From positions 1 through 33,652 of the forward strand of contig JAAYDB010000116.1 in assembly GCA_012729475.1 (NCBI GenBank): a stretch of 33,652 bases of DNA, in the 5' to 3' direction. The DNA comes from Bacteroidota bacterium (GTDB taxonomy: Bacteria; Bacteroidota; Bacteroidia; Bacteroidales; VadinHA17). The notes under the pieces were generated by a model, which saw only the letters and a program-made list of their open reading frames with translations, was not told the DNA's origin and searched no databases. Numbering within the stretch: position 1 is the stretch's first letter; each line of letters starts with the position of its first letter. Made by a program: the position numbers and the translations under genes. Shown piece after piece: positions 536-32,818 of the stretch.

Positions 536-617
536 TGTAATCAGGTTTAAATGATTAATTAAATGAATATCTAATAAAGATAGGGTATTTATTTAAGAAT
601 TAATCTTTGGTTTACAC

Positions 618-671
618 AAAAAAATAGCACAAGTTACATGTGTTTAAGAAGAAGACATATAACTTGTGCTA
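618..671 (-). terminator. Rho-independent terminator downstream of the GH9 gene
   Basis: Read on the minus strand, TAGCACAAGTTA (671-660) pairs perfectly with 636-625. After one mismatch the stem continues for four more pairs (658-655 with 638-641), closing a loop of about 13 bases. The stem is followed directly by seven Ts (624-618). It lies 54 bases past the stop of the gene at 725-3256, the only minus-strand gene reading into it. Confidence 0.85.
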
Positions 672-724
672 ATCATGAAAATGTTGAATCAGTTATTGAT
701 CCAAGACTATTTTGAACAAACTAT

Positions 725-3256: not shown

Positions 3257-3626
3257 ACTGAATAAAGAGTTAAGTTAGATAGTGGTTTGAATATAAGGAT
3301 ATATTAGTATATAAATGTGATATTCAGAAGATAAATATAATACATTATAATTCTGATAATATGAATAATCATTCACTGTTACATGATTCCTGAAATGTAA
3401 AGTTAAAAAAAACGGTCTGAAATGCTATAGCAGAGAAAATTATTTTTATCCGTACATGACACTTGCCTGAAAAGTGTATATTCCTTGTTGTTTATTTTGT
3501 TTTCATTAAGGTGAGGTCTATTGAAATTGTGAACCAATTTGTCCAGTATCAACAGACCATCTCAATTATTCCTCAGAAGAGAAACAACATACCCAGATTG
3601 ATAGTACCGGTATCGCTAAAAATTTA
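3257..3626. other. Intergenic region, 370 bp, no gene seen
   Basis: AT-rich DNA upstream of the GH9 gene and downstream of the FMN-binding gene. The only structure I see is a 6-bp hairpin, ACACTT/AAGTGT (3459-3464 with 3472-3477), with no T tract after it. The region must hold the GH9 promoter, but I find no convincing TAnnTTTG element on the minus strand. An 89-codon plus-strand frame running through here overlaps the 3' end of the next gene and has no coding character. Confidence 0.5.
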
Positions 3627-4049
3627 TTATTCTGTTTTTTTAGCATTTGATAAAGCCTCCAGAGTTGAAGCTTTAAACAAATTATATGACCAGGTTGCAC
3701 CACTAATAACATCTACTTTTTCCGGATCCTGATGTTTTAACAGGCTGTCAGGATAGGACTGAATTCCTTTCCAATCATTTCTGCATTGCTTTATATATTC
3801 ATCGTTTCCGGCAAAATATTTCTCATACTTTTCATCAAAATATTCATGTTTGGAGGAGTCACGAACAAAAAAATTTATCCTGGTAATTATCCCATTTTCA
3901 ATAGTAATCTTTGAATACCCATAATATGGTTCATTAGTGTAAATAGCCCGGGAAATGCCGCTATAATTACCGTCTTTATAAGGTCCTCTGTCCCCTGAGA
4001 AGGCTAAAATTATTAATACGAGAACCCCGGAAAAAATATGTTTTATCAT
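3627..4049 (-). CDS. Small exported FMN-binding-domain protein
   Basis: 140 residues: a hydrophobic N-terminal signal segment (about 1-18) followed by one FMN_bind domain. The typical opening KDGNYSGISRAIY (25-37) and a KITIENGIITRINF strand pair (47-60) lead to DVISGATWSYNLF (113-125). In this family (RnfG/NqrC and single-domain relatives) the residue after SGATx, here S121, is flavinylated by ApbE through a phosphoester bond. The predicted role is an extracytoplasmic electron-carrying flavoprotein. No apbE gene and no partner redox enzyme lie in the window, so its electron donor and acceptor are unknown. The Asp-rich middle (63-110) has no motif I recognise. The gene stands alone on the minus strand. 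Confidence 0.8.
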   Translation of the reverse strand: MIKHIFSGVLVLIILAFSGDRGPYKDGNYSGISRAIYTNEPYYGYSKITIENGIITRINFFVRDSSKHEYFDEKYEKYFAGNDEYIKQCRNDWKGIQSYPDSLLKHQDPEKVDVISGATWSYNLFKASTLEALSNAKKTE

Positions 4050-4158
4050 AATATAAAATGAATTACTGAAAAGTTAATGATTTTATATTTTTATGACCTT
4101 TGATTTTCTGTTTACCCTACCAAATATTTTAAAATAAGTGCTTATTACAGTTTTTTTT

Positions 4159-4635
4159 CTAAAATATATCAAGTTTTTCCAGATTTTTGACTGCTTCTGT
4201 AAAACCTCTTTTCAGAAATTTTATTTTCCATATTTCGACAGGTGAGAAGCTCATCGCTATGGTAGTGCTTTTGATAACAAGCAATTTATCACCAATTTTT
4301 AAGTTACAAGCTTCCATGAAATCATTGTTAAGAAAAACACGGTTTTGTAATACTTTCGTCAAAGCATATGGTCTTGATTTGATATATACAAGAAGGTCAA
4401 TATCATTTATTTGTTGAATGATTTGGCTAAACACAGTTTGCTTGGCATAATTATAATTCAGCACTGCAAGTCCTCCTTCTCCTTTACGGGTAGATGTCAG
4501 GAGTACAAGATCATTATTTGTGATATTGTATCTTTCAAGTGCTTTTGAAGGTATACAAATGCTATAATCATTTCTTAGAATTGCAATTCCATAGGCTTCT
4601 TTTGCACCGGGAGTGCCTGGGGATAAACTTGGCAT
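4159..4635 (-). CDS. Hypothetical protein with two tandem AbrB-like swapped-hairpin units
   Basis: 158 residues without signal peptide or membrane segment. Residues 15-49 (YGIAILRNDYSICIPSKALE, then NITNNDLVLL) and 90-124 (YALTKVLQNRVFLNNDFMEA, then NLKIGDKLLVI) follow the same plan: a strand, a short turn, 'IPxxxxxxxNI', then 'xxDxLLV'. That plan resembles the SpoVT/AbrB swapped-hairpin fold, in which two beta-hairpins associate. Two units in one chain would allow an intramolecular dimer. AbrB-fold proteins usually bind DNA, but the basic residues expected for that are sparse, so DNA binding is not claimed. The neighbours (an FMN-binding protein and a symporter) do not suggest a function. 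Confidence 0.5.
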   Translation of the reverse strand: MPSLSPGTPGAKEAYGIAILRNDYSICIPSKALERYNITNNDLVLLTSTRKGEGGLAVLNYNYAKQTVFSQIIQQINDIDLLVYIKSRPYALTKVLQNRVFLNNDFMEACNLKIGDKLLVIKSTTIAMSFSPVEIWKIKFLKRGFTEAVKNLEKLDIF

Positions 4636-4905
4636 TTTGTCTTGTATTAATTATTTCACGCGTTTATTTATTTATTATTTCATTCGGGTATATAATTATT
4701 TCAATGGTCGAATGGAACTTACATGTATTTATAATGAGTATACGGAATGATTCCATATTGCGAAAATATAATATTTACCATACATGTAATAGCATTGATG
4801 CTGCTATACTCTTTATGAAATGCATTAGATACTCTCTTAACCCACCAACAGAAGGGGGTTTTATGAGGAATTTCACAGGTCAGTCAATGTCGCCGAATAA
4901 GAATA

Positions 4906-6327
4906 TTAACGACTGAGCAATAGTCTTTTATTCGGAATTAATGAAGTTAGCCAATATGCTAGTATAGATATTCCAATCCCAAAGATATTTGCATCTAAAC
5001 CTAATGGTAAACTAATTCCTGAAATTATTAATACTAAAGTGGTACCCCCACCAGCTATCATTGAAGAAAGTGCTGCAACCGGATTAGGGTTCTTCAGAAA
5101 TAATGCAGCCAAAACAGGAATAAACATTCCTGAAACCATAAACGAGTATGAATGAAGCATCAATTCCAGAACGCTACTCATCTTTAAAGCAATCAACAGG
5201 GCCAGAGCTCCAATTATTAAAGTGAGAATCTGAGAATAACGCAAGCCGTTTTTAGAATTATGTTTTCCTAATACATCTGTCAGAATATTTCCCGACGATG
5301 CCATTAAACAACTATCAGCAGTCGACATAATTGCTGAGAAGTATGAAGATAGTACGATTCCTAAAAAGCCTACCGGCAGAATTGTTCTTAGCAGTACAGG
5401 TAATCCCATTTCTGCATCAAGATTCGTTGTTGTGTAACCAGGTAATAGACCATTATCCAATGCAACACGGGCGAACATTCCTAATATTACGCCAACAAAA
5501 GACATTAATGGATACTCAAACAACCCGGCTATAAACCATCCTTTTTGAGCAGTTTTAGTATCTTTTGCAGCATATATTCTCTGATATAATGTCATACCAA
5601 TAAACCAGATCGGAATTATAGTAAACATCCAATTGACAATATTTTGCCACGATATGGCAGTTATACTAAGGAATGACGGCGGAAGTGTTGATTTAATTGT
5701 TTCCAATCCACCAATCTTAAAATAAGCAAAAGGAAGTCCGATGAAAACCAATCCGGTCATTAATACAATCCACTGAACTGTATCTGTGTATATTACCGCT
5801 TTAAGTCCACCTAATACCGTGTAGATAACTGCAACTACTCCCATTATCAACAGAGCCTGATTTAATGACAGGCCGGAAAAAGTAGAAGAAGCCAGTTTTG
5901 CACCTGCCAGGATCTGAGAACTTGTGAAGCCTAAATAACCTATTGCAGAAATTACACCTGCCAGTAAAGCAACCTTCTTATCATAAACATGCTCAAGGAA
6001 TTGAGGAAAAGATAAGAATCCTTTTTTACGTGCTAAGTCTGATACTTTGGGAATTAAGAGTACAGCGCTTAACCAGGCTCCAACAAGCCCTGTGAAAAGC
6101 AACCAGCTTCCGGATAAGCCCATAGCAAACCCCAGACCTCCTAGTCCAATCTAAAAGCCACCACCAACATCAGTTGCAACAACAGAAAGACCAATATGTA
6201 TACTGCTTAACTTTCTTCCACCAACATAATAGTCGTCTGTGGAAGTGTTCCTTCTCATAAAATAGAACCCTACACCCAGCATGGCAGTTAAGTAGGTGCA
6301 AAATATTGTAATATCTATCCAACTCAT
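4906..6327 (-). pseudogene. Sodium:solute symporter (SSS family) interrupted by an in-frame amber codon
   Basis: An SSS-family permease of 473 codons starting at ATG 6327. The first 58 codons give TM1 and the start of TM2, ending [10 protein letters not shown]. Codon 59 is TAG (6153-6151). Reading continues in the same frame with IGLGGLGFAMGLSGSW, the usual continuation, and is open to 4906. SSS proteins couple Na+ import to uptake of amino acids, sugars or osmolytes. TM8 carries the Na2-site-like segment SAIMSTADSCLMASS. Restart at the ATG at 6123 would give 405 residues lacking TM1, which holds part of the Na+/substrate site, so that product is unlikely to work. The gene lies 148 bp downstream of ablB on the same strand with no promoter seen between them. 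It may therefore be part of the osmolyte transcription unit. The amber codon may be a true nonsense mutation or a base-call error (one base from TCG, TGG or TTG). Confidence 0.8.
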
Positions 6328-6475
6328 TTAATAAACTCCCATGTAAATTCATGTCATTGTTATACATCTGCATTTTGTATATCCCTTTGTGCTCAGTGAA
6401 AAAATTTCATGTGTACCTGCTCTATTTTGACAGGACGGGAATTCTTTTAATGAAATAAACAGATATTCCGGCATA

Positions 6476-7315
6476 TTAAATTTGCTTGTAATAAATATTC
6501 ATACTCTCAATGTTGCCTGCAATATTTGTGTTTTTTATGAGTGTGCCGGAATATTGATATTCATTTTTTAAAAACGTTTTGTTCATCGGAATCGAATTCA
6601 GCCGCGCTATGGTATAAAGGGTGTTTATCCCCTGCTGCTTCATTTGTTTTTCCATTTGTCTCAATAATAAATTTGACAGATTATTCCCTGTGTGATCAGG
6701 ATGAGTTGCAAAGTCAGTCATTTCAGCATTTTGCCCTTTAAAATCAATTTCAGATGAAGAAAGTGCAGCTAATTTCCCGTCTTTCTCTGCTCCAAAGTAC
6801 TGCACGTTCTCTCGCATTGTTTTTTGTATATAACCTGGATTATGAATAGGGAAGGGGTAAGTTTCAAAAACTTCCCTGTATATATCTGTAATCTGTTCAA
6901 CATCTGATTTGTCAAGCGTTCTGATGCTGTAGCCATGTGCCTGCTTTTTCAGGTTTCGATTCTTCTCTGCTCTTTCTACAAGTTGGTCAGACAGGATGGC
7001 AAGTTGTTTTTTTTCGATATTCAGTAATCTGTCTGAACTGAGAAATTTGGAAACGAAGAAAACATCATCCTGGTTCTTGAAAAACTTTGGAATAAAACCT
7101 TCAAGAATATAACCATCCATAAAAAACAGGGGAGCTATATACTTTGGGACTTTACAGAATATTTTGGAATAACCTTTTTCCTTTGACAGTTTTGATAGTT
7201 CCGGTATTATTATATCAACATCACCTTCATCCAGTTTCATTAAATAAACCCTGTCATTATACGTTCCATGTTGTATTACTGAACCTTTCCCTATTACATC
7301 AACCTTGTCATGCAT
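6476..7315 (-). CDS. ablB: Beta-lysine N6-acetyltransferase
   Basis: 279 residues from the chosen start. AblB acetylates L-beta-lysine with acetyl-CoA to give N-epsilon-acetyl-beta-lysine, a compatible solute known from methanogens and some bacteria. The N-terminal half (about 1-110) is the AblB-specific part. The C-terminal half is a GNAT fold, with [20 protein letters not shown] as the acetyl-CoA loop region. The family-typical end [11 protein letters not shown] is present. Start choice: the frame is open nine codons further upstream, but AGGAGG (7328-7323) sits seven bases before the ATG at 7315. That ATG overlaps the ablA stop in ATGCATGA, an 8-bp overlap that implies translational coupling. 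Adjacency to a lysine 2,3-aminomutase supports the call strongly. Confidence 0.88.
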
Positions 7316-8621
7316 TTCCATTCCTCCTCTGTAACCTTTCATTATCTCCCGGTATCAGAGAAATGGTGTCGCAGGAATCAGAAAGTAGTTTTTCAATCCC
7401 AATTGCTGCTGACTCGTCTCTCTCATCCAGGTTTAATTCCAAATCGCAGTTATCGCAATCCCGGTTACACATCTTGGGCTCGTAACTATCAGGCTCTTTG
7501 TAGGTAGTAATAACCCCTTCGTAATTTCGGAGTACAACTTTATTTGTTGACCACGAAATTATATAATTAGGCATCACAGGTATTTTACCACCACCCCCCG
7601 GAGCATCAATAACATAAGTAGGACGGGCAAAACCACTGGTATGGCCAATAAGGCTTTCCATTATCTCAATTCCTTTACCAATCGGTGTTCTGAAATGAGA
7701 CAGACCTTCTGAAAGATCACATTGGTATAAATAGTAGGGACGTACCCTGTTTTGAACCAGTTTGTGCAATAATGATCTCATTATCCTTGGACAATCATTT
7801 ACATCAGCCAATAAAACCGACTGATTACCTAAAGGAAAACCTCCATCGGCAAGTTTGGCCAAGGATTCTTTCGATGAAGCTGTTATCTCTTTCGGGTGAT
7901 TAAAGTGAGTATTGATCCACAAGGGCTGATATTTCTTTAATATCGAAACCAGGTTGTCTGTAACTCTGTATGGAAGCACTACTGGTATTCTTGTTCCTAT
8001 ACGAATTATTTCAACATGTGGTGTTTTTTTGATCTCAGAGAGCAGCCAGTCTATTTTATCATCAGGCAACATAAATGGATCACCTCCGGAGAGTAATACA
8101 TCCCTGACCTGTGGTGTATTCTTTATGTATTCAATCCCTTCTGATAACTGATCTTTTGAAGGTACAAAGTCAACATCTCCGACTTTACGTTTTCGTGTGC
8201 AATGCCTGCAATACATCCCACAAATATTGCTGACGTGAAAAAGTACTCTGTCAGGGTATCTGTGTGTAATCCCTTCTACAGGACTGTCCTTGTCTTCTGA
8301 AAGTGGATCTGCAAGCTCAGATGGACGCGTTATAAGCTCTTCCTTGCTGCCAAAGGATTGTTTGAAAACCGGGTCATTTTTATAGTTCTGCTTATCAATT
8401 AATGACAGATAATAAGGAGTAATTGATAATGGGAATTTTTTAAATGTCTTTTCTAAATCAGCTCTTTCCTTTTCTTCGAATTTAATACCTGTCAAATATT
8501 CAAACTTTTCTAAGGTTCTGATAGAATTCTTTATTTGCCATTTCCAGTCTTTCCAATTCGACAATTTTGATTCTTCCTCAATCTTGTATGCTATCTCTTT
8601 TTGTATTGTGTTGTATATCAT
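7308..8621 (-). CDS. ablA: Lysine 2,3-aminomutase (radical SAM, PLP)
   Basis: 437 residues from ATG 8621. The frame extends 12 codons further (MYFCSHRNK...), but that part is not family-like. The enzyme converts L-lysine to L-beta-lysine using SAM, a [4Fe-4S] cluster and PLP. Residues seen, numbered from M at 8621: the radical-SAM motif CGMYCRHC (C134, C138, C141); GGDPF; the PLP-lysine segment [15 protein letters not shown] (K346); and a C-terminal Cys-rich segment CNRDCDNC of the kind that binds zinc in this family. The length is close to the usual 410-440. It overlaps ablB by 8 bp, and together they make N-epsilon-acetyl-beta-lysine. A promoter-like TATTTTTG sits 26-33 bases upstream of the start, so the pair may be transcribed independently of the MarR gene behind it. 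Confidence 0.93.
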
Positions 8622-8646
8622 AAAATAAAATTTGTTTCTATGCGAA

Positions 8647-8654
8647 CAAAAATA
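8647..8654 (-). promoter_or_regulatory. Candidate Bacteroidota -7 element for ablAB
   Basis: On the minus strand TATTTTTG matches the Bacteroidota -7 consensus TAnnTTTG. It predicts a transcript starting near 8640, about 20 bases before the ablA ATG. No good -33 TTG is visible at the expected distance, so support is limited to the -7 box and its position. Confidence 0.35.
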
Positions 8655-8746
8655 CAAAAAAGGACTAAATACTACTAATTAAATACAGTATATTTTGAAT
8701 ATGTTGTTTTAGAATGACTTAATTGAGGGCTTGATTCCGGGCAAGG

Positions 8747-10635: not shown

Positions 10636-13278
<2,643 letters not shown>

Positions 13279-14214: not shown

Positions 14215-14577
14215 GAATTGTTTAAGCTTGACTTACTGTCCGGATTAATTTAGCTTTCAATATCTTTTTCATTGTATTAAAAATTAATATTATTAATCAA
14301 AAAATTAAAATGATGATTCAATTTAAAAGAAATGATAATCCTTGAGTCGGTATATATTGTAAATGGGATCCTGTATACACGCACAAAAAAAGAAATATAC
14401 CATATTTTAAGAATGACATATATCATATTTCAGGCAGTGACCATTAGATATCTTTGCGCCGTTTTTTGCCTCTTGTTTTTGGGTTTCCGTTAATTGTTTA
14501 GAATAATGACAGAGGTTGTTGGTTTGACAGCATCAGTATTGGTTTTGTGAAAGATTGTTAACTCAAAAAAAGAGGAA
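14215..14577. other. Divergent intergenic region, 363 bp, before the hyf-like operon
   Basis: It separates the minus-strand hydrolase from the plus-strand operon and must carry both promoters. Toward the operon it contains the -7-like box at 14449-14456. It also holds two similar short stretches, ACCATATTTTAAG (14399-14411) and ATCATATTTCAGG (14422-14434), 23 bp apart, which could be a pair of regulator sites. Near the hydrolase it is a run of A/T with no recognisable element. Confidence 0.45.
14449..14456 (+). promoter_or_regulatory. Candidate Bacteroidota -7 element of the hyf-like operon
   Basis: TATCTTTG fits TAnnTTTG exactly and would start a transcript near 14463, leaving a leader of about 115 bases. 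TTTC at 14428-14431 is at the place of a weak -33 element. A purine-rich AGAGGAA just before the ATG at 14578 would serve as ribosome-binding site, unusual for this AT-rich phylum. Confidence 0.45.
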
Positions 14578-16599
14578 ATGGGAAAAACATTATTTGAATT
14601 AATAAATCTTCTGGCTCTTGTGGCCATCGTTTTATTGCCTCTTGTCAGGAAGGGTAAAGCCCTTTTTGTAATTATTATTTTTCTGCAACTTTTCCTGGGC
14701 TCACTACTTGCCCTGGGGGTAATAGTGGGTGATAGTATTGAATTTTTCTACAGGGGCACAGCAGTAACAAGTGTCGTCCCCATTAGAATTGACGGGTTAT
14801 CAGCCTGGTTTATATTGGTTATTGGGTTGACCTTTTTTACCGGGATCTGGTACGGAATGCACTACTTAAAGAGGTATACAGGAGAGAGGGCTAACCTTAC
14901 CCTGCATTACCTCTCTTTTGTTTTGGTTTACACCGCTTTAATTGATATCTGTGCAGTACAAAACAGTTTTGTATTTCTTGTGGTATGGGAGATCATGGCC
15001 CTGGGTACCTTCGTGATGGTCATACTTGACAACCACAAGTCTAAAACATTAAAGGCTGGTATAAACTACCTTATTCAGTCACATATCGGCATACTACTGC
15101 TTACTCTGGCCTTTATTTGGGTTAAACTGGAGACAGGATCTTATGATTTTAATGCCATAACGGGGTTTACCTCCTCCCTCTCTGCTTCTGCTGGCTTGTT
15201 TCTTTTCACTATCCTGTTTATGGGGTTTGCCATAAAAGCTGGCTTTGTACCTTTTCATACATGGTTGCCTCATGCGCACCCTGCTGCCCCGGCCCACGTA
15301 TCAGGGATAATGTCGGGAGGTATAATTAAGTTAGGTATTTACGGTATTTTAAGGATGTTAATGCTGGTAAGGATTGATATGGTTATGGTAGGGCAACTGC
15401 TACTTGTAGTATCAGTGATAACAGGAGTATACGGGGTTATGTTGGCAATTATTCAACACGACCTGAAGAGCTTACTTGCTTATCACAGTATAGAAAATAT
15501 TGGTATTATTGGAATAGGTATAGCTATAGGCTGCCTGGGTATTGGTCACGAGAATCCCCTGTTAATGGCTACCGGCTTTGCAGGGGCACTATTACATACC
15601 CTTAACCACTCGCTGTTCAAATCACTTTTATTTTACTCAGCGGGTAATATATACCTGGCCAGGCACACTATGAACATCGACTCCCTGGGAGGATTGTTAA
15701 AGGAGATGCCGCGTAACGGGTACCTCTTTCTAATTGGCTCCCTGGCTATATGCGGGTTACCCCCGTTCAACGGTTTTGTGTCGGAGTTCCTTATCTATAA
15801 AGGTATCATTAGTGGTATAATAACCAGCAACTCCATGTCGGTTCTTGTAATCCTCTTCGCCCTGCTTGGTCTGGTTATCATAGGTGGACTGGCGTTGATC
15901 TGCTTCACTAAGGCATTTGGTATAATGTTCCTGGGTAAGCCCAGGGGGAGGCCAGAGCCTGTGACAGAGGATGAAGGAAAGAGTTATCCCCTGATCCTGA
16001 CGGCACTGCTTATATTGTTAATCGGGCTCTTCCCTCTTCTGCTTGGGCCAACCCTGGTTAAAGTGACTGCTCTGTTTGGTACAGCCCGGGGAGTGGCAGA
16101 ACCATATGGTTTACGCGAAGCTGTGAACAGCTCCATGATAATTGGATGGTACTCACTGGGGTTCATTTTGTTAACAGTAGTTATTTTTCTTTTACGAAGA
16201 GAACTGGTAGCCCATAGAATTGTTGCAACAGAAGAAACATGGGGATGTGGGTATCAGGGTGATAACTCCAGAATGAGCTATACCGCCTCATCTTTTGTTC
16301 GTACCTACCGCAAACTGTTTAGCCCCTTGCTGAACATTCACAGTTCCAGGGAGGGGGCTTCAGGTCTTTACCCAGTAAGCATGGGAAAGGAAACCTATCC
16401 GGGCGACAAGGTTGAAAGGTGGCTGATAGATAAACCACTGAATTTATCAAAGAAACTGCTTGAAAGGTTCAGCTTTCTGCAGAACGGAAATATCCAGGCT
16501 TATATACTGTATGGTTTGGTTTTTATTACCATGGTGATTCTTCTACCCACCATATATGCTCTCGCTGCTTCTTTTATTAAAATATTAAATCAACTCTGA
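14578..16599 (+). CDS. hyfB: HyfB/NuoL-like proton-translocating membrane subunit
   Basis: 673 residues with many transmembrane helices, of the antiporter-like (MrpA/NuoL/HycC) family. The functional polar residues are kept: E138 in VVWEIMALG (the TM5 glutamate), K220 in IKAGFVPFHTWLP (the TM7 lysine), K251 in TM8, and K348 in LNHSLFKSLLFYSAG (the TM12 lysine). The C-terminal soluble loop ETWGCGYQGDNSRMSYTASS is characteristic of HyfB/HycC rather than NuoL. It is the first gene of a six-gene plus-strand operon; the next ORF starts 1 bp after its stop. It probably pumps H+ or Na+ as part of a membrane complex. The gene symbol is by homology; the complex is not a normal hydrogenase (see hyfG and hyfI). 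Confidence 0.9.
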   Translation: MGKTLFELINLLALVAIVLLPLVRKGKALFVIIIFLQLFLGSLLALGVIVGDSIEFFYRGTAVTSVVPIRIDGLSAWFILVIGLTFFTGIWYGMHYLKRYTGERANLTLHYLSFVLVYTALIDICAVQNSFVFLVVWEIMALGTFVMVILDNHKSKTLKAGINYLIQSHIGILLLTLAFIWVKLETGSYDFNAITGFTSSLSASAGLFLFTILFMGFAIKAGFVPFHTWLPHAHPAAPAHVSGIMSGGIIKLGIYGILRMLMLVRIDMVMVGQLLLVVSVITGVYGVMLAIIQHDLKSLLAYHSIENIGIIGIGIAIGCLGIGHENPLLMATGFAGALLHTLNHSLFKSLLFYSAGNIYLARHTMNIDSLGGLLKEMPRNGYLFLIGSLAICGLPPFNGFVSEFLIYKGIISGIITSNSMSVLVILFALLGLVIIGGLALICFTKAFGIMFLGKPRGRPEPVTEDEGKSYPLILTALLILLIGLFPLLLGPTLVKVTALFGTARGVAEPYGLREAVNSSMIIGWYSLGFILLTVVIFLLRRELVAHRIVATEETWGCGYQGDNSRMSYTASSFVRTYRKLFSPLLNIHSSREGASGLYPVSMGKETYPGDKVERWLIDKPLNLSKKLLERFSFLQNGNIQAYILYGLVFITMVILLPTIYALAASFIKILNQL

Positions 16600-16600
16600 T

Positions 16601-17506
16601 ATGGTCAGTTTGCTGCTGGTATTTTTTGTTTCTCTTTTCTTCATGGGTGTGGTTACAAGAATCAGGAGCCTGACATCAGGCAGGAAGGGCCCCTCTGTTA
16701 TGCAACCTATGTGGGATATTGTCAGGTTGTGGAGAAAAGGTTCGGTTTACAGCACAACCACCAGCTTCATTTTCCAGCTTGCACCAATAACCTATATTGC
16801 CTCTCTACTGGTAGCAGTCCTTATGGTTCCTCATGGGAGTAGAGCGGGATTGATCTCCTTTGAAGGCGACTTTATAATGTTTGCTTATCTCCTGGCTTTC
16901 GGGAAATTTATGATGATAATAGCTGCCCTTGATACCGGTAGCAGCTTCGAAGGCATGGGAGCAAGCAGGGAGGCTCTCTTCTCAATGCTTGCTGAACCGG
17001 CTTTCTTTATACTGATGGGATCATTTGCCCTCTTTACCGGCAATAGCTCGTTCCAGGGAATCTTCAACGGGTTGTACTACGGATCTCATTTCTCCTATAT
17101 GCTTGGAGGGTTGGCTACATTTGTCTTAATTATTATTGCAATGGTAGAGAATAGCCGTATGCCGGTAGACGATCCCAAAACTCACTTGGAACTGACCATG
17201 ATACATGAGGTGATGATACTGGATAACAGTGGGTTCGATCTTGGTTTAATAATGTATGCAACACACCTGAAATTTGCTATGTATGGTTCTATAATAGCAA
17301 GCTTCTTTATTGGATCACTGCCCCTTTGGTTATCAATACCTCTTACCCTGGTAATACAGATGTTTTTTGCTATAGTGGTGGGCATCATGGAGTCCTTTAC
17401 AGCTCGCTTCAGGATGGGCCATAACCCACAGTTTATCTTTATACTAACCTCAGTAGCCATCCTGATCTTCTTCGGAGTATTGATGTTGCTCGGAAGATTC
17501 ATGTAA
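16601..17506 (+). CDS. hyfC: HyfC/NuoH-like membrane subunit
   Basis: 301 residues, about eight transmembrane helices, homologous to NuoH and HycD/HyfC, the subunit that joins the soluble arm to the membrane arm and carries the E-channel. The family-typical loop segments are intact: GMGASREALFSMLAEPAFF (113-131), and ENSRMPVDDPKTHLELTMIH followed by EVMILDNSGFDLG, with the acidic residues that line the connecting channel. It starts 1 bp after hyfB and ends 12 bp before hyfE. Conservation of these loops shows that the docking surface for the soluble arm is still under selection, although the soluble arm has lost most metal ligands. Confidence 0.92.
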   Translation: MVSLLLVFFVSLFFMGVVTRIRSLTSGRKGPSVMQPMWDIVRLWRKGSVYSTTTSFIFQLAPITYIASLLVAVLMVPHGSRAGLISFEGDFIMFAYLLAFGKFMMIIAALDTGSSFEGMGASREALFSMLAEPAFFILMGSFALFTGNSSFQGIFNGLYYGSHFSYMLGGLATFVLIIIAMVENSRMPVDDPKTHLELTMIHEVMILDNSGFDLGLIMYATHLKFAMYGSIIASFFIGSLPLWLSIPLTLVIQMFFAIVVGIMESFTARFRMGHNPQFIFILTSVAILIFFGVLMLLGRFM

Positions 17507-17518
17507 TCAATAGATGTA

Positions 17519-18148
17519 ATGACAGATATATTGTTAATAGCTTTCGCAATGACGCTACTCTACATGAGCATAGCGAACAGGTTGAATACCTATCTCGTAA
17601 TCCTTGTTTTCCAGGGTATACTCCTTTTTGGCATAACCCTGCTTACTCTTACAGAGGTGAAAACCCTAAACCTGTTGCTGATCCTGCTGGAAACCATTGT
17701 ATTCAAGGCAATTGCTGTTCCCTGGTTTCTGGGATACATCATTAAACATAACGGAATAACAAGGGTTGCAGAGCCTTATTTACCCTACTTTGTTTCACTT
17801 ATTATCGTGACCCTGATCATTGTGGGAACCATAATCTTGTCAAGTTCAATCAGAGAGGAGAACCTGGATAAAACCTATTTCGTTGTGGCATTATCTACAC
17901 TCTTCACCGGTTTGTATATGATTGTCTCAAGGAAGAAGATCATTTCACACGTCATTGGTTACCTGGTAATTGAGAACGGTGTTTTTATTCTTTCACTGGC
18001 AGTGGGAAACGAGATGCCTATGATGGTGAACCTGGGGATTATGCTCGATATTTTTGCAAGTGTCCTTATCCTAGGAATATTCTTCAATAAGATTGGGGAT
18101 ATAATAAGGGATCCTGATGTCAATCTTTTACGTAATCTTAAAGACTAA
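17519..18148 (+). CDS. hyfE: HyfE/NuoK-like membrane subunit
   Basis: 209 residues, about seven hydrophobic segments. The N-terminal half contains the NuoK-like core, LLLILLETIVFKAIAVPWFL (54-73), with a membrane glutamate and lysine of the kind conserved in HyfE. The second half repeats a similar plan, with a glutamate in HVIGYLVIENGVFILSLAVG. HyfE proteins are longer than NuoK (about 100 residues) because of this extension. The gene sits between hyfC and hyfF with gaps of 12 and 5 bp. It is expected to be part of the ion-translocating membrane arm. Confidence 0.85.
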   Translation: MTDILLIAFAMTLLYMSIANRLNTYLVILVFQGILLFGITLLTLTEVKTLNLLLILLETIVFKAIAVPWFLGYIIKHNGITRVAEPYLPYFVSLIIVTLIIVGTIILSSSIREENLDKTYFVVALSTLFTGLYMIVSRKKIISHVIGYLVIENGVFILSLAVGNEMPMMVNLGIMLDIFASVLILGIFFNKIGDIIRDPDVNLLRNLKD

Positions 18149-18153
18149 TATTG

Positions 18154-19581
18154 ATGGTCATAGCCGGTTTTTTTATTCTTACGTTGATTATATCTGTTGT
18201 ACTCTTCCTAAACAGAAGTAGTTTGGTGAACAGTTTATTACTGTTACTCTACCTGGCCTCACTCTGGTTCACTGGAATCTATGGTCTGCTTCACAAGGGA
18301 GAGATTGATTCCTGGTTTTTCAGACCGGATGCCCTAGGAATACTAATGGTTCTGGCTCTCTGTATAATCTCTATTCCTTCTCTCTACCATGGATGCAGGT
18401 TTATTGCTACTCATGATGAGACTCCCCGTTCCAGAGGACTTTTCTTTGCTGCCATGGTCTTGTTGATGACAGCCTGTGCCATGGCTTATCTCTCCAACCA
18501 TATAGCGGTGACATGGATATTCGTGGAGGTGACTACCTTAAGTGCATCTGTGTTAATTTATCACAATAGAAATATTAAGGCACTGGAGGGGGTTTGGAAG
18601 TACGTCTTTATCTGCGCCATCAGTATTACCTTTATTTATGTTGGGATTCTGTTCCTCAGTCTTTCTCTGGCGCAGACAGGGGTGGTGGATCTTTCTTTCG
18701 ACTCCCTGAGAGCTAATTATGCCAATATGGATCCATTCTGGTTAAAACTGGCCTTCCTCTTTATCTTTACAGGTTTCACTGCAAAGTTGGGGCTGGTCCC
18801 TATGTATACAGCAGGTATTGATGCCAAGGATGCAGCCCCCTCACCCGCTGGAGCTATCTTTGCCAGCGTACTCATGAATGTAGGTTTTATAGGTATTTAC
18901 AGGGTTTACGCGTTAATATCTCACACACCATTGCGACATTGGGCTGATACCATAGTAATAATTGCAGCGTTGCTATCGGTATTAGTGGCAACGGTATATA
19001 TGGCCAGAATAAAAAATATCAAGAGAATGTTCGCATATTCCGGGGTGGAGCATATGGGACTGGTAATGCTGGGTCTGGTCTCAGGTGGAGTGGGTGTATA
19101 CGCTGCAATATTACACATATTGCTCCACACCTTACTTAAGCCTACTCTTTTCTTTCAGTATGGACAAATATTCAGGGTCTATAAAAGGAATAACATGGAT
19201 TACGTGGGAAACTATTATAAGTATAACAAGGCAGGAGCCATGGTAGTGTTACTAGGTTTTATCTCAGCTACGGGTATGCCCCCGGCCGGTTTGTTCGTAA
19301 GCGAGTTTCTAATATTCCAATCGCTTTTTCAGGCTCACAACCTGATTATACTCCTGGTGGTTCTGATATTACTGACAATGATAATATACGGGTTTGGTTC
19401 AAATGTTTTCAGACTTCTTTTTACTCCACCCGTGGAAATAAATGAAAAACAAATCCCTGTGATAAAGGTGAGAGAATCCTTATCACAATACCTCCTCCTG
19501 GCTCTGACTGTCTATTTTGCCTACTGCCCGCCTTCTCAGCTGGTATCATTGATACAGGAGGCAGCTAACCTTATAAATTGA
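18154..19581 (+). CDS. hyfF: HyfF/NuoN-M-like proton-translocating membrane subunit
   Basis: 475 residues from ATG 18154 (a TTG codon directly before it is open but offers no advantage). This is the second antiporter-like subunit. E125 in TWIFVEVTTLSASVL corresponds to the TM5 glutamate. K211 in FTAKLGLVPMYTAGIDA is the TM7 lysine, followed by the family loop APSPAGAIFA. K329 in ILLHTLLKPTLFF is the TM12 lysine. Together with hyfB it gives the complex two antiporter-like channels. It ends 5 bp before the hyfG ATG. There is no HyfD, so the complex has one antiporter-like subunit fewer than E. coli hydrogenase-4. Confidence 0.9.
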   Translation: MVIAGFFILTLIISVVLFLNRSSLVNSLLLLLYLASLWFTGIYGLLHKGEIDSWFFRPDALGILMVLALCIISIPSLYHGCRFIATHDETPRSRGLFFAAMVLLMTACAMAYLSNHIAVTWIFVEVTTLSASVLIYHNRNIKALEGVWKYVFICAISITFIYVGILFLSLSLAQTGVVDLSFDSLRANYANMDPFWLKLAFLFIFTGFTAKLGLVPMYTAGIDAKDAAPSPAGAIFASVLMNVGFIGIYRVYALISHTPLRHWADTIVIIAALLSVLVATVYMARIKNIKRMFAYSGVEHMGLVMLGLVSGGVGVYAAILHILLHTLLKPTLFFQYGQIFRVYKRNNMDYVGNYYKYNKAGAMVVLLGFISATGMPPAGLFVSEFLIFQSLFQAHNLIILLVVLILLTMIIYGFGSNVFRLLFTPPVEINEKQIPVIKVRESLSQYLLLALTVYFAYCPPSQLVSLIQEAANLIN

Positions 19582-19586
19582 TAGAG

Positions 19587-21086
19587 ATGGATTACTTAAC
19601 AATAAGAAACAATCAGGTGGTTCCACTGAGCGATATTCCGTTGATCAGCTACGACTTCTTTAAAGAAACCAACCTGAGACTAATGGAGGAGTCCGAAGCC
19701 CGACACTGTGTTAATTACTTCGGTTACCGGGAGTCGGGTCAGATTAGACTGATCTGTTGTATAGCTGACGATACAGACCATTCCATCTTTATTACCTCTG
19801 CCATTACCCCGGCTGATGCAGTGCTGGATTCGTTTACCCGGCCAAACGCGAATTTCGAGCGTTTCGAGAGGGAGATACATGAGAATTTTGGGGTGGAGTA
19901 CAGGGATCACCCATGGCTAAAACCACTCAGATACAGTTATGACAGGTTTGATAGCTCTCAAAAGATGGAAAACTACCCTTTTGTCAAGGTGGAAAGCGAT
20001 GAGCTTCACGAAGTGGGGGTGGGGCCAATACATGCCGGAATAATTGAGCCGGGTCACTTCAGGTTTATCTGTAACGGGGAGCAGATCATGCATCTGGAGA
20101 TACAGCTGGGGTATCAGCACAGAGGAATAGAACGACTATTCCTGCAGAAGAGCAGAGTGGAGGAGAGAACCATACTTGCCGAGAACATTGCAGGAGATAC
20201 AGTTGTTGGGCATACTACAGCTTTTGCAAACTTATGGGAGAGCCTGATCGGAGCTGAAACCACCAACTCTCTTAATTTCTCCAGAACTATTGCACTTGAA
20301 CTGGAGAGAATAGCTATTCACACAGGCGACCTGGCAGCTATATGTGGAGATATTGCCTATCAACTTGGTAACTCTGTATATGGCAGGCTACGTACACCTA
20401 TAGTCAACTTCTTTCAGGAGTGGGGAGGAAACAGACTGGCAAAAGGGTTGGTACGGGTAGGAAGGATGAACTACCCCTTCACCTCAGAGCTGGGGGATAG
20501 ATTGCTGGATATATTCAATGCTTATGAACCCGACTTTAATGAAATTACCAGGAAGTTATGGAGACTGCCCAGTGCTCTCTCAAGAATGGAACGAACCGGT
20601 GAGCTGACTACAGGAGAAGCACGTGAGATAGGAGTTGTAGGTATGGCCGCCAGGGCAAGCGGACTGGAGAGAGACGTGAGAAAATCCCATCCCGGTAATC
20701 TGTACCATGAGATATCCCATCAACCGGTGGTAAAACACCATGGGGATGTATATTCCAGGGCACAGATAAGAAAGGAGGAAATAAAACAGTCGATCTCCTA
20801 TATAAAAGAGTTACTTCAAGACATACCCGATAATAACGATGTTAATACAGAAGGAATGATAATCCAACCCAATGTATTTGTTATCTCCCTGGTGGAAGGG
20901 TGGAGAGGAGAGATATGCCACTGTGCTGTTACCGGTAAGAAAGGAGATCTTCTGCTCTACAAAATAAAGGATCCTTCATTCCACAACTGGATGGCACTAG
21001 CCCAGGCCGTGAGGAATAACGAAATATCCGACTTTCCTGTTTGCAATAAAAGCTTTAACCTCTCATATTGCGGACATGACCTTTGA
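19587..21086 (+). CDS. hyfG: HyfG-like large subunit (NuoC-NuoD fusion type) without NiFe ligands
   Basis: 499 residues from ATG 19587 (a TTG nine bases earlier overlaps the hyfF stop by 4 bp and is an alternative). Residues about 1-140 are NuoC-like. About 145-499 are the NuoD/hydrogenase-large-subunit domain, with GPIHAGIIEPGHFRF and LGYQHRGIERL. In real group 4 hydrogenases the N-terminal motif is ERICGIC; here the segment reads AENIAGDT (198-205), with no cysteine. The C-terminal DPCxxC motif is replaced by DFPVCNKSFNLSYCGHDL, which has C486 and C495 eight residues apart. The NiFe site therefore cannot form. This places the protein with energy-converting-hydrogenase-related (Ehr) proteins. 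Remaining cysteines include a C444-x-C446 pair. No hyp maturation genes are nearby. Confidence 0.9.
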   Translation: MDYLTIRNNQVVPLSDIPLISYDFFKETNLRLMEESEARHCVNYFGYRESGQIRLICCIADDTDHSIFITSAITPADAVLDSFTRPNANFERFEREIHENFGVEYRDHPWLKPLRYSYDRFDSSQKMENYPFVKVESDELHEVGVGPIHAGIIEPGHFRFICNGEQIMHLEIQLGYQHRGIERLFLQKSRVEERTILAENIAGDTVVGHTTAFANLWESLIGAETTNSLNFSRTIALELERIAIHTGDLAAICGDIAYQLGNSVYGRLRTPIVNFFQEWGGNRLAKGLVRVGRMNYPFTSELGDRLLDIFNAYEPDFNEITRKLWRLPSALSRMERTGELTTGEAREIGVVGMAARASGLERDVRKSHPGNLYHEISHQPVVKHHGDVYSRAQIRKEEIKQSISYIKELLQDIPDNNDVNTEGMIIQPNVFVISLVEGWRGEICHCAVTGKKGDLLLYKIKDPSFHNWMALAQAVRNNEISDFPVCNKSFNLSYCGHDL

Positions 21087-21127
21087 CAGGATCGCTTTTT
21101 TATCATTAACAGAAACTATAAAAAGCT

Positions 21128-21880
21128 ATGTTTGACAACTTGAAAATAATGTGGCACCAGGGAAAACAGTATATCCCTGATGTAAGGACCGCTAAAGTAC
21201 CAGGGATTTTTCGGGGCCGACCAGTGATCACTGCTGTTAAAGTTGATGAGGAACGATTGGCGGGTTTATGCCCTGCAGGTGCAATAACAACTTCCCCGCT
21301 TTGTATTGACCTGGGCAAATGTACCTTTTGCGGGGAGTGTGCTCTTCATTTCAAGACAAAAATCAGCTTTACTGCTGATTACCGTCTGGCTTCCAATAGC
21401 AGAGAGAGACTGGTTGTCAGGGAAGGTGAGGAGAGGGTTATCTCTGTCGACCCGCTCTTAGTCAGGAAGGAGGTTAGACGGCTTTTTGCCAACTCACTAA
21501 AGCTCCGCCAAATATCAGCCGGGGGTGATAACAGCTGCGAATGGGAATTAAATGCTTCCAATAACGTCCAGTTCGATATGAGCAGGTTTGGGATAGAGTT
21601 TGTGGCCTCCCCAAGACATGCCGACGGGATAGTCATAACCGGACCCATAACGAGAAATATGGCCACAGCACTGGAAAAATGCTACAATGCAGTGCCTGAC
21701 CCTAAGGTAATCATATTGGTGGGGACAGATGCTATTAGCGGGGGAATATTTGCTAATACCCCGGCAGTGGATAGGAGCTTCCTGGACAGACATAAACCGG
21801 ATTTATATATTGCCGGAAACCCCGCACACCCGCTTACCATTATCAATGGTATGCTGGATCTGGTTAAGTGTAAACGGTAA
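21128..21880 (+). CDS. hyfI: Fused ferredoxin-HyfI-like small subunit with most cluster ligands lost
   Basis: 250 residues. About 1-110 is a HyfH/NuoI-type ferredoxin module (YIPDVRTAKVPGIFRGRPVI). C48 (CPAGAI) plus C65, C68 and C71 (GKCTFCGEC) can hold one [4Fe-4S] cluster. The ligands of the other cluster are all gone: VDEERLAG replaces the first CxxCxxC and HF replaces the second CP. About 130-250 is NuoB/HyfI-like, with FDMSRFGIEFVASPRHAD and VPDPKVIILVG. The proximal-cluster ligands are mostly replaced: CxGC is DNSC (D134, C137), GDCA is GTDA (D201), GCPP is GNPA (N231). The gene lies 41 bp after hyfG and is the last of the operon. It is convergent with the AraC gene 91 bp away. Confidence 0.85.
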   Translation: MFDNLKIMWHQGKQYIPDVRTAKVPGIFRGRPVITAVKVDEERLAGLCPAGAITTSPLCIDLGKCTFCGECALHFKTKISFTADYRLASNSRERLVVREGEERVISVDPLLVRKEVRRLFANSLKLRQISAGGDNSCEWELNASNNVQFDMSRFGIEFVASPRHADGIVITGPITRNMATALEKCYNAVPDPKVIILVGTDAISGGIFANTPAVDRSFLDRHKPDLYIAGNPAHPLTIINGMLDLVKCKR

Positions 21881-21971: not shown

Positions 21972-22835
21972 TCATTTCGTATAATTTAGCCTGTATTCGT
22001 TTGGATTCATTCCTGTATGCTTTTTGAAAAAACGAATTAAATTGGGAACATCAGAAAAATTCATTCCGAAACATATTTCTTTGATGGATTTATCGGTATA
22101 TAATAACTCCCTCTTTATTTCGGTTAACAATCTTTCTTTTATTATTGCAGAAACAGGTAAACCAAACGTCTTTTTTGAAATATTGTTTAAATGAGCCCGA
22201 CTGATTTTCAGAAGATTAGCATAGTCCTCTACCCTATGATAATTCCTGATTTTAACTTCCAATATTTTTTTAAATTGAAGTCCGGTATTATTCTGAAAAG
22301 AGTTAACTGATAAACCATAATATGCCATATATTTCCTGTTGATCTGGATCAGAATATTATAAAGTATCGAACGTAAATAATGATGGCTGTCTTCCCGAAG
22401 ATTCGATAATTCATGGGTAATTGTTGAGCAGAGATCCGTCAACGATGTTAAAAATTCATTATTGCATTCTAATGTGCATAAGGTTGTGGTATTATGAAAA
22501 AATGGAAAACGATAGATAAAAAAGCTATCCTGAAAAAATGTTTCAATAAATTCATTTTCAAATACCAGCAAGTAAGCATCAAAATCTGAAGATATATTTT
22601 GCCATTGTCTTACCTGATTGGGTCGAATAAATAGAAGAGTTCCTTTTTTAAGATGAATATTGTTGTTATCAACCATAATTGAGCCCTTCCCCGATGTTAC
22701 AAACAGGATACAGTAAACACTTGTAATAAAGGGATATTGAGGAAGTTTAAAGCTCGACTTTGAGTATAGAGAACAATCGATTAAATATTTATTCCCATAT
22801 TTTCTTTTTATGAAATGTCGTTTTCTTTTTCTCAA
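21972..22835 (-). CDS. AraC-family transcriptional regulator
   Basis: 287 residues. The N-terminal part (about 15-150) is a cupin-like sensing domain with SGKGSIMVDNNNIHLKKGTL and FIRPNQVRQWQ. The C-terminal ~100 residues carry two helix-turn-helix units: VEDYANLLKISRAHLNNISK for the first and SIKEICFGMNFSDVPNLIRF for the second, then the closing FFKKHTGMNPNEYR. Such single-cupin AraC proteins usually activate nearby metabolic genes in response to a small ligand. It faces the end of the hyf-like operon and lies downstream of an aldo/keto reductase gene on the same strand, with about 380 bp between them. A degraded paralogue of its last 24 codons lies at 25173-25244. Confidence 0.88.
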   Translation of the reverse strand: MRKRKRHFIKRKYGNKYLIDCSLYSKSSFKLPQYPFITSVYCILFVTSGKGSIMVDNNNIHLKKGTLLFIRPNQVRQWQNISSDFDAYLLVFENEFIETFFQDSFFIYRFPFFHNTTTLCTLECNNEFLTSLTDLCSTITHELSNLREDSHHYLRSILYNILIQINRKYMAYYGLSVNSFQNNTGLQFKKILEVKIRNYHRVEDYANLLKISRAHLNNISKKTFGLPVSAIIKERLLTEIKRELLYTDKSIKEICFGMNFSDVPNLIRFFKKHTGMNPNEYRLNYTK

Positions 22836-31720: not shown

Positions 31721-32818
31721 CTAATTTACAGGGGTTTTGTCCAGTAATGAGATGCTCAGGATTTGTAGAATTTCGTAGATTGTACGCTTAACTTTCAATT
31801 TATTACCGACCAGAGCAACCAGACAGTAAGCTATAATGGCACAGTACATTTGTATCTTTACGGCATTGAGAGTTATTCCCCAAAAAGATTTGATCTTAAG
31901 ATGTTGCTTCAGCCATTTGAAAAACAACTCTACTTCCCATCTTTTCTTATACAGGAAGGCAATCTCAGTAGCGTCCAGGTCCATGTTATTGGTCAGGAAA
32001 ACAAGTTCCAGGTTATGATCGGCGTCATAATACTTAATTCGTCGCAGCTTTTTAGGATACTCGCTTCTGGATTTGGGTACCAACAATCTGCCAATCTGAT
32101 CATTGATGACACCTGTTGTTTTATCTACGGCCTTGGAATACATCCGCTTGAACTGGAGGTTATCTTTAACCCTTATCACAAAGAAAGACCCGTTAGCATT
32201 TATCCTTTGGAGTCGATGAAAGTCTGTGTATGCTTTGTCAGCAACGTAAAAACTACCTCTTTCGTAAGGAATGAGATCTATAATGTTGACATCGTGAACC
32301 TTGGCTGTTGTGATCTGGATAAAACTGGGAATAGAGGTATTTATATCAAAGAGAGTATGGAGTTTTATCCCTCCCTTATGCTTTCTGAACTCAGTCCACC
32401 AAAAGACGCTTAAAAAAAGGTCTATTGTTGTGGAGTCCAGCGCATAAACATTGCTATCAACCTCTATCTCAAAATCATTCCGATAACAACTTCTGCGTGC
32501 TTCTGCAATCAGTACATAGGCAAACTCTTCAAAAATTTGGCAATTCCTCTTTTCATTTGCAGTTCCAAGATTTCGGCGAGAAACAGTTGGCCCAAAGCCC
32601 AGATGATAGTACTTTGATTGGTGTGCTTCCAGGCTCAGTATTATATCTCTCATACTGTCTCTGGCTGTTAGTTGCCCAAACACCATGCAAAGCATTTGAT
32701 TCCAACAAGTAAAAGATCTCACACGTTTATTACCTTCATACTTGTCAACAATTCTATCAAATACTCTGCGAGGTAAAAAATCTGTAAGCTGAGCGAAAAT
32801 ATATTTGCCTTGATTCAT
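31721..32818 (-). CDS. IS4-family DDE transposase
   Basis: 365 residues, apparently intact. The catalytic DDE set is visible: first Asp in YALDSTTIDL, second in FYVADKAYTDF, and Glu in the YREK-like segment FLYKKRWEVELFFKWLKQHL. The N-terminal 110 residues (FAQLTDFLPRRVFDRIVDKY and onward) are the DNA-binding DUF4372-type region typical of one large IS4 subgroup common in Bacteroidota. The stop lies 39 bp inside the left IS end and the start 102 bp inside the right end. Being uninterrupted, it may still be active. Confidence 0.93.
   Translation of the reverse strand: MNQGKYIFAQLTDFLPRRVFDRIVDKYEGNKRVRSFTCWNQMLCMVFGQLTARDSMRDIILSLEAHQSKYYHLGFGPTVSRRNLGTANEKRNCQIFEEFAYVLIAEARRSCYRNDFEIEVDSNVYALDSTTIDLFLSVFWWTEFRKHKGGIKLHTLFDINTSIPSFIQITTAKVHDVNIIDLIPYERGSFYVADKAYTDFHRLQRINANGSFFVIRVKDNLQFKRMYSKAVDKTTGVINDQIGRLLVPKSRSEYPKKLRRIKYYDADHNLELVFLTNNMDLDATEIAFLYKKRWEVELFFKWLKQHLKIKSFWGITLNAVKIQMYCAIIAYCLVALVGNKLKVKRTIYEILQILSISLLDKTPVN

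Follow-up and report, generated by a model that had tools for sequence, protein, structure and literature searches.

What can a pump of the respiratory complex I type still do when most of the redox sites of its soluble arm are gone? This question is raised by a six-gene operon on contig JAAYDB010000116.1 of a VadinHA17 Bacteroidota bacterium, analyzed here over a stretch of 33,652 nucleotides (nt) that is referred to as the window. The operon occupies positions 14578–21880 on the plus strand, and Pfam and NCBIfam assign its six proteins, HyfE by sub-threshold matches only, to the complex I/hydrogenase-4 superfamily: the membrane subunits HyfB, HyfC, HyfE and HyfF, the large subunit HyfG, and a small subunit in which an N-terminal ferredoxin domain is fused to a NuoB/HyfI domain. 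A preliminary description of this DNA had placed six intact frames here and had read them as a complex-I-like operon that is being maintained, its pump part largely preserved and its soluble arm poor in redox sites. The list of open reading frames with their coordinates bears out the former, and the comparisons below bear out the latter. Judged by its subunits, the operon is an energy-converting hydrogenase-related (Ehr) complex of a derived Bacteroidota subfamily. On trees and alignments, the proximal cluster at the N2 position was lost once in this clade, and three of the four positions of its ligands became fixed as Asp/Asp/Asn.

In the literature, Ehr complexes are described as relatives of group 4 hydrogenases that lack the Ni-Fe ligands and have an unknown function (PMC6349859, PMC7894505, PMC7304191, PMC10432482, PMC4378227). 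The same sources report an Ehr complex from Melainabacteria (PMC6349859) and describe the Geobacter one as the cluster GSU0739-45, which includes EhrA-1, EhrC, EhrL and EhrS (PMC7894505). The published range covers Margulis-, Sagan- and Melainabacteria, the Candidate Phyla Radiation, ammonia-oxidising archaea and Nitrospira, and Sulfobacillus. In line with these complexes, the window carries group-4-hydrogenase-like subunits in one operon and a large subunit without the [NiFe] cysteines. The [NiFe]-stripped arm that the preliminary description had put forward is therefore real but not new, because this loss is a known hallmark of Ehr complexes, an identity that had been missed. Compared to the published complexes, the clade additionally lacks the N2-position cluster, has D/D/N instead, and carries an altered HyfF loop. 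Neither N2 loss nor a HyfF loop change in Ehr is mentioned in the literature found, which consists of partial texts and does not extend to the main Ehr paper (Marreiros 2013). Provisionally, the new element is the clade-wide N2 loss with its nearly fixed replacement.

The fate of the redox sites follows from alignments with the E. coli proteins. The four [NiFe] cysteines of HyfG (C243, C246, C517, C520) correspond to A205, T208, S496 and G499 in the window, and the proximal-cluster cysteines of HyfI (C44, C47, C111, C141) to D134, C137, D201 and N231 of the small subunit. In the ferredoxin domain C48, C65, C68 and C71 are retained; the other cluster has lost all four of its ligands, whose positions read V, gap, L and F. 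The active-site metal ligands, the proximal cluster and one ferredoxin cluster, all three of which had been reported as lost, are indeed missing in these alignments. The retained cysteines align with NuoI C70, C99, C102 and C105, which in complex I bind cluster N6b, the neighbour of N2. The fold of the small subunit was predicted with a mean pLDDT (predicted local distance difference test) of 93.2 and a pTM (predicted template modelling score) of 0.90; a Foldseek search with this model ranked E. coli HycG (7z0s_G) first and Pyrococcus MbhJ (6cfw_J) second.

A pattern scan of 84,980 species genomes yielded at least 564 large-subunit relatives, and the best 80 were kept. In a tree of 103 Ehr large-subunit rows, one branch, with a support of 100 in the Shimodaira–Hasegawa-like approximate likelihood ratio test (SH-aLRT), comprises 67 rows, the window operon included, all of which lack the full set of four N2 cysteines. 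Outside this branch, 35 of the 36 rows have all four. The sole exception (L146, Verrucomicrobia) reads C/A/C/W, and its loss is separate from that of the Bacteroidota clade. A thinned tree likewise places 53 of 53 clade rows on one branch (SH-aLRT 100). Both trees are quick searches with no bootstrap, and the large subunit from which they were built does not itself contain the trait. The sister group holds loci of Melainabacteria/Gastranaerophilales, in a tree that includes no named Ehr sequence. As side observations, L146, from an Opitutaceae metagenome-assembled genome (MAG), has a small subunit (positions 11487–12302) that lost its N2 ligands in part and has the cysteines of both ferredoxin clusters intact, and L099, from a Phycisphaerae MAG, carries a D-type Ehr on a contig labelled Planctomycetota, which reflects either gene transfer or a binning error.

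The replacement can be followed in 67 distinct clade small subunits; this set leaves out the two contigs that the tree's 67 rows count twice (L078, L090) and adds L038 and L054. D134 recurs in 65, D201 in 64 and N231 in 62 of the 67, a pattern beyond chance, and C137 drifts (49/67). Variants within the clade include D/V/E/A and D/C/D/A in Alistipes, D/V/D/A in its kin, and D/D/H/S, A/D/D/N and E/H/D/N in Cytophagales. Each of the four cysteines of the retained ferredoxin cluster is present in all 67. All ligands of the second ferredoxin cluster are present in 13/35 N2-bearing rows and in 2/70 N2-less rows (L095 and L146; L146 and the two duplicate contigs are counted among the 70). As it is often lost across Ehr, it is the N2 loss that marks the clade. 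The [NiFe] ligands, too, are missing inside and outside the clade alike as far as the alignment reaches: at positions 2, 3 and 4 Cys occurs in none of the Ehr rows aligned, and position 1 has Cys in just 3 clade-side rows and in 12/35 N2-bearing rows. What sets the clade apart in this comparison is the loss of N2 together with the changed HyfF loop.

Further changes are found in HyfG. Gly206 stands at the position of E. coli NuoCD Tyr273, presumably the counterpart of the quinone-site Tyr-87 of Thermus, and Gly is present here in 64 of 65 clade rows. H43 occurs in 65/65 clade rows and 0/35 N2-bearing rows, C44 in 59/65 and 0/35, and C256 in 61/65 and 2/35. E. coli HyfG likewise has H at position 43 and C at position 256.

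In the membrane arm, the channel residues are present in HyfB (E138, K220, K251, K348, E403) and in HyfF (E126, K212, K330, E385). They align with those of E. coli HyfB and HyfF, most of them also with NuoL/M/N, and are near-invariant among relatives. The channel lysines and glutamates had been recognized before, with HyfF numbers that are one lower because they were counted from the ATG after the TTG start. In HyfC, E132, E183, R186, D191, H195, E197, H202, E203 and D208 are invariant in the rows aligned. The arm has nonetheless not stayed entirely the same: the Trp and Pro of the HyfF loop HxWLPDAH are gone, and the window reads YTAGIDAK there. These two residues are found in 33/33 N2-bearing relatives and in E. 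coli HyfF, and all 60 clade members have V/A/I at the Trp position and I/V at the Pro position. HyfB retains its loop, HTWLPHAH. The earlier reading of preserved channel charges thus holds; the change in the HyfF loop, a derived, clade-specific mark, had been overlooked. Apart from these marks, most columns that are at least 95% conserved in N2-bearing Ehr reach 85% or more in the clade as well: 79/84 in HyfB, 47/50 in HyfC, 10/14 in HyfE, 29/44 in HyfF, 91/96 in HyfG and 41/50 in the small subunit (duplicates, L064–L068, L146 and proteins of unusual length excluded). As the conserved columns are mostly kept, constraint on the large subunit and the HyfC anchor persists in the absence of the relay cluster.

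Small-subunit orthologues (E < 1e-60) are present in 40 of 97 relatives, i.e., in 32/57 of the genus and 8/40 of the rest of the order, so the presence of the operon is patchy. In a sample of 392 genomes from the phylum, 16 match the small-subunit profile (E ≤ 1e-45), of which 14 have N2-type cysteine motifs, whole or partial, and two, the own genome and L167, have D/D/N. Wider regions were taken for 36 of the 40 orthologue-bearing relatives: 27 of these loci have all six genes in order and eight are truncated at the end of a contig. Two of the 27 have a partial match for one gene, namely the large subunit in L054 and hyfC in L062. L064 (G043:C141) has a truncated small-subunit gene alone, with no other operon genes within 19.9 kb, and looks like a decayed remnant. 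The preliminary description had named absence from close relatives and relaxed selection as signs that would speak against maintenance. The operon is present in relatives, albeit unevenly, and the ratio of nonsynonymous to synonymous substitution rates (dN/dS, Nei-Gojobori) is 0.02–0.25, far below 1, in every gene pair of the relatives for which dS could be measured, some of which approach saturation. Saturation is reached in the pairs that include the window, and selection on its copy is therefore inferred from the intact reading frames and from the sites that are conserved. The short or truncated genes of L054, L062 and L064 could be cited for a decaying, non-functional operon, but given the low dN/dS and the 27 complete loci out of 36, we regard this as hardly credible.

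Equally improbable is that the operon encodes a normal group 4 [NiFe] hydrogenase or complex I and that a paralogue elsewhere in the genome provides the missing ligands. Membership of the superfamily is what speaks for it, together with the further 49-kDa homologues that many relatives carry. Against it stand the absence of Cys from [NiFe] positions 2–4 throughout the aligned Ehr rows and the content of the own genome, which is 97.33% complete. Its PF00346 matches come from this operon alone, so that, the missing 3% aside, no other 49-kDa homologue and no paralogue supplying large-subunit ligands was found, and the small subunit matches only itself at E-values up to 1e-5. HypD gave no match in the own genome, in a search that found it in 4/14 control genomes. 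Five Complex1_51K-type genes are present elsewhere in the genome.

Several known systems resemble the window complex in part. E. coli hydrogenase 4 (Hyf) has its B, C, E, F, G and I subunits in the same order, and formate hydrogenlyase (Hyc) provides HycG, the best match of the small-subunit model; in contrast to Hyf, the window operon has no hyfA, hyfD, hyfJ or hyfR and has a HyfH-like domain fused to HyfI, and compared to both it is without [NiFe], N2 and one ferredoxin cluster. From group 4 [NiFe] hydrogenases it differs by the absence of the four [NiFe] cysteines and of a detectable HypD. Complex I (Nuo) has homologous anchor, 49-kDa, 30-kDa, 20-kDa and antiporter-like subunits, whereas the operon encodes no NADH or other electron-input module and no N2 ligands, and has Gly at the position of NuoCD Tyr273. 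Pyrococcus Mbx/MBS retains the proximal cluster and has an Mrp-like membrane module. With the Mrp antiporters, the related antiporter-like subunits (Proton_antipo_M) are shared, but the operon encodes NuoH/D/C/B-type subunits and, without any gene of the MrpB/E/F/G types, lacks the MrpA–G set.

One locus goes further than the clade. L065 (G069:C386, positions 539–7758) is a divergent Ehr-like cluster in which the small-subunit gene comes first. The 175-aa product has no ferredoxin domain and reads D/C/D/D at the N2 positions; HyfF keeps HTWLPDAH. This would possibly be a complex-I-like complex without any redox cofactor, which leans toward the non-redox side of the readings discussed below. 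In the thinned large-subunit tree, L065 falls outside the remaining Ehr rows, at the end of a long branch; on account of this position, it was rejected as a transitional form and is counted only as a probable independent case. Around G069, 43 of 149 genomes, some of them overlapping with the 97 relatives, match its small subunit at E ≤ 1e-25. Of 30 loci from these surroundings, 28 have D-type motifs ending in GNP (the middle motif of L202 is unmatched), one is the same gene as L065 and reads D/C/D/D (L182), and one has no readable frame (L208). L198 (186 aa), which has no ferredoxin motif, was excluded, as its start appears frameshifted or cut.

Partner genes were sought in 114 loci, comprising 68 of the clade (including the window, and L146), 34 N2-bearing ones and 12 without a small subunit in reach. 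No recurrent redox or soluble partner gene occurs among the identified neighbour clusters. The larger clusters include those for gamma-glutamyltranspeptidase, DNA alkylation repair, peptidase M49, phosphate transporter, PhoU-like, AlbA_2-type and Gfo/Idh/GH109-type proteins, which appear to reflect a gene order that close relatives have in common. Of the one-off genes adjoining the operon, ten were scanned; they encode a tRNA synthetase, an EPSP synthase, a peptidase, a transporter and others, among them an AhpC/TSA-type redoxin 30 bp upstream of the operon in L115. An extra hyfB-like antiporter gene lies directly upstream in 14 of the 114 loci (two of these are the same contig) and not in the window; the seven scanned are all Proton_antipo_M. 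Separately, six N2-bearing loci (L103, L121, L129, L130, L147 and L151) have, about 150–215 bp upstream, a gene related to the PTS-EIIA plus HTH_17 protein of L121, the only one of the six that was scanned. This gene is possibly a regulator.

How, then, might the complex work? The clusters of complex I lie 9–14 Å apart and electrons tunnel over up to ~14 Å (PMC5938582). With N2 lost, a gap is therefore expected, and the remaining cluster should be a dead end toward the old cavity unless the pocket is otherwise filled. The reading that we favour, tentatively and at somewhat less than even confidence, is an ion translocator that is gated by one redox centre and not driven through it. HyfB, HyfC, HyfE and HyfF would translocate H+ (or exchange H+ for Na+), and the soluble arm would carry electrons to the old active-site cavity no more. 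A soluble donor, most simply reduced ferredoxin, would set the redox state of the single cluster. Together with protons (or a metal) bound to the Asp134/Asp201/Asn231 site beside the cavity, this state would be signalled to the membrane arm by conformation, via the conserved cavity loops and the charges of HyfC. The D/D/N replacement, the invariant cluster cysteines, the single branch, the dN/dS range and the fact that little else has changed are counted for such a gate, as are the expected tunnelling gap, the lack of a recurrent redox partner among the identified neighbours, and L065. Several points weigh against it: the strict conservation of the four cluster cysteines is what would be expected if electrons still flow, and the negative result on partner genes covers only part of the neighbours. 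L065, for its part, is one genome on a long branch, and a ferredoxin gene may lie beyond its contig end. Moreover, we know of no such gate in the complex I/hydrogenase superfamily. In more general terms, it is conceivable, but somewhat doubtful, that the N2 site was converted once to a conserved, protonatable or metal-binding Asp/Asp/Asn site and, probably independently, to D/C/D/D in L065, and that the pump was uncoupled from electron transfer through the arm, so that conformation or protonation would run it and no more than one cluster would serve as a gate.

Nearly as likely as gating is that the complex is still a redox-driven pump, in which electrons would enter the single cluster and either reduce a substrate or pass a mononuclear metal in the D134/D201/N231 pocket, followed by the usual coupling. 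The invariant cluster cysteines and the nearly fixed triad of hard ligands fit this well, as do the kept cavity and anchor residues and the near-invariance of C44 and C256 of HyfG in the clade. A quinone substrate is harder to reconcile with Gly at the Tyr273 position. A check of 98 genomes for menaquinone genes gave two PF02621 (MqnA/MqnD) matches in the own genome, which makes a menaquinone pool possible there, but no MenA match, and a MenD match below the cut-off, as in every one of the 58 genus genomes sampled. (G080 was rejected as a genome without either menaquinone pathway; it has a MenA-type match of 94.1 bits at a cut-off of 102.15.) No linked donor or acceptor gene was found among the identified neighbours, and no relative with a metal at the equivalent of the D134/D201/N231 site is known to us, which also counts against continued redox drive. 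An unfuelled antiporter, in which the soluble arm and its cluster are purely structural and HyfB and HyfF perform secondary H+/cation exchange like Mrp, is less likely than either and in our estimation improbable. The retained antiporter lysines and glutamates, the lost redox sites and the additional upstream HyfB-like genes point in its direction. A passive scaffold, however, would not need a large subunit and HyfC conserved about as in N2-bearing Ehr, no MrpB/E/F/G-type gene is among the six, and the HyfF loop motif is lost.

The features of the window are listed in Table 1. The spacings between the six genes are 1, 12, 2, −4 and 41 bp, the −4 being an overlap of hyfF and hyfG if TTG 19578 is the start of hyfG. 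The promoter candidate TATCTTTG matches the TAnnTTTG consensus. Elsewhere in the window, the pair of lysine-2,3-aminomutase-type and acetyltransferase genes resembles that of N-acetyl-beta-lysine (osmolyte) synthesis, and the length of the peroxidase-family protein is that of a catalase-peroxidase.

Table 1. Features of the window, with positions counted from its first nucleotide.
Feature	Position	Strand	Remarks
Lysine-2,3-aminomutase-type gene	6476–8657	−	adjoins GNAT acetyltransferase gene
Large peroxidase-family protein	10636–12813	−	725 aa
Possible Bacteroidetes-type −7 element, TATCTTTG	14449–14456	+	~120 bp 5′ of hyfB
hyfB/ehrA-like antiporter-like subunit	14578–16599	+	673 aa; Proton_antipo_M
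hyfC/nuoH-like membrane anchor	16601–17506	+	301 aa; NADHdh
hyfE-like membrane subunit	17519–18148	+	209 aa; Oxidored_q2 (Pfam) and hydrogenase-4 membrane subunit (NCBIfam), both below cut-off
hyfF-like antiporter-like subunit	18151–19581	+	476 aa; Proton_antipo_M
hyfG/ehrL-like large subunit	19578–21086	+	502 aa; 30-kDa and 49-kDa domains
ehrS-like small subunit	21128–21880	+	250 aa; Oxidored_q6 (hyfI/nuoB-like); weak NuoI matches near N-terminus
AraC-family regulator gene	21972–22835	−	convergent with the operon
DDE transposase with DUF4372	31721–32818	−	close to window end

How complex I links electron transfer to the pumping of ions has long been an open question, and a natural relative under selection, which has kept the membrane arm and the cavity and lost the terminal relay cluster, makes this question testable. 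If ions are still moved, the membrane arm would have no strict need for redox chemistry at its N2/cavity end; if the complex is redox-driven, the D/D/N site would be a new way of driving such a pump. To many Bacteroidota, the operon would also add an unexplained ion-handling complex.

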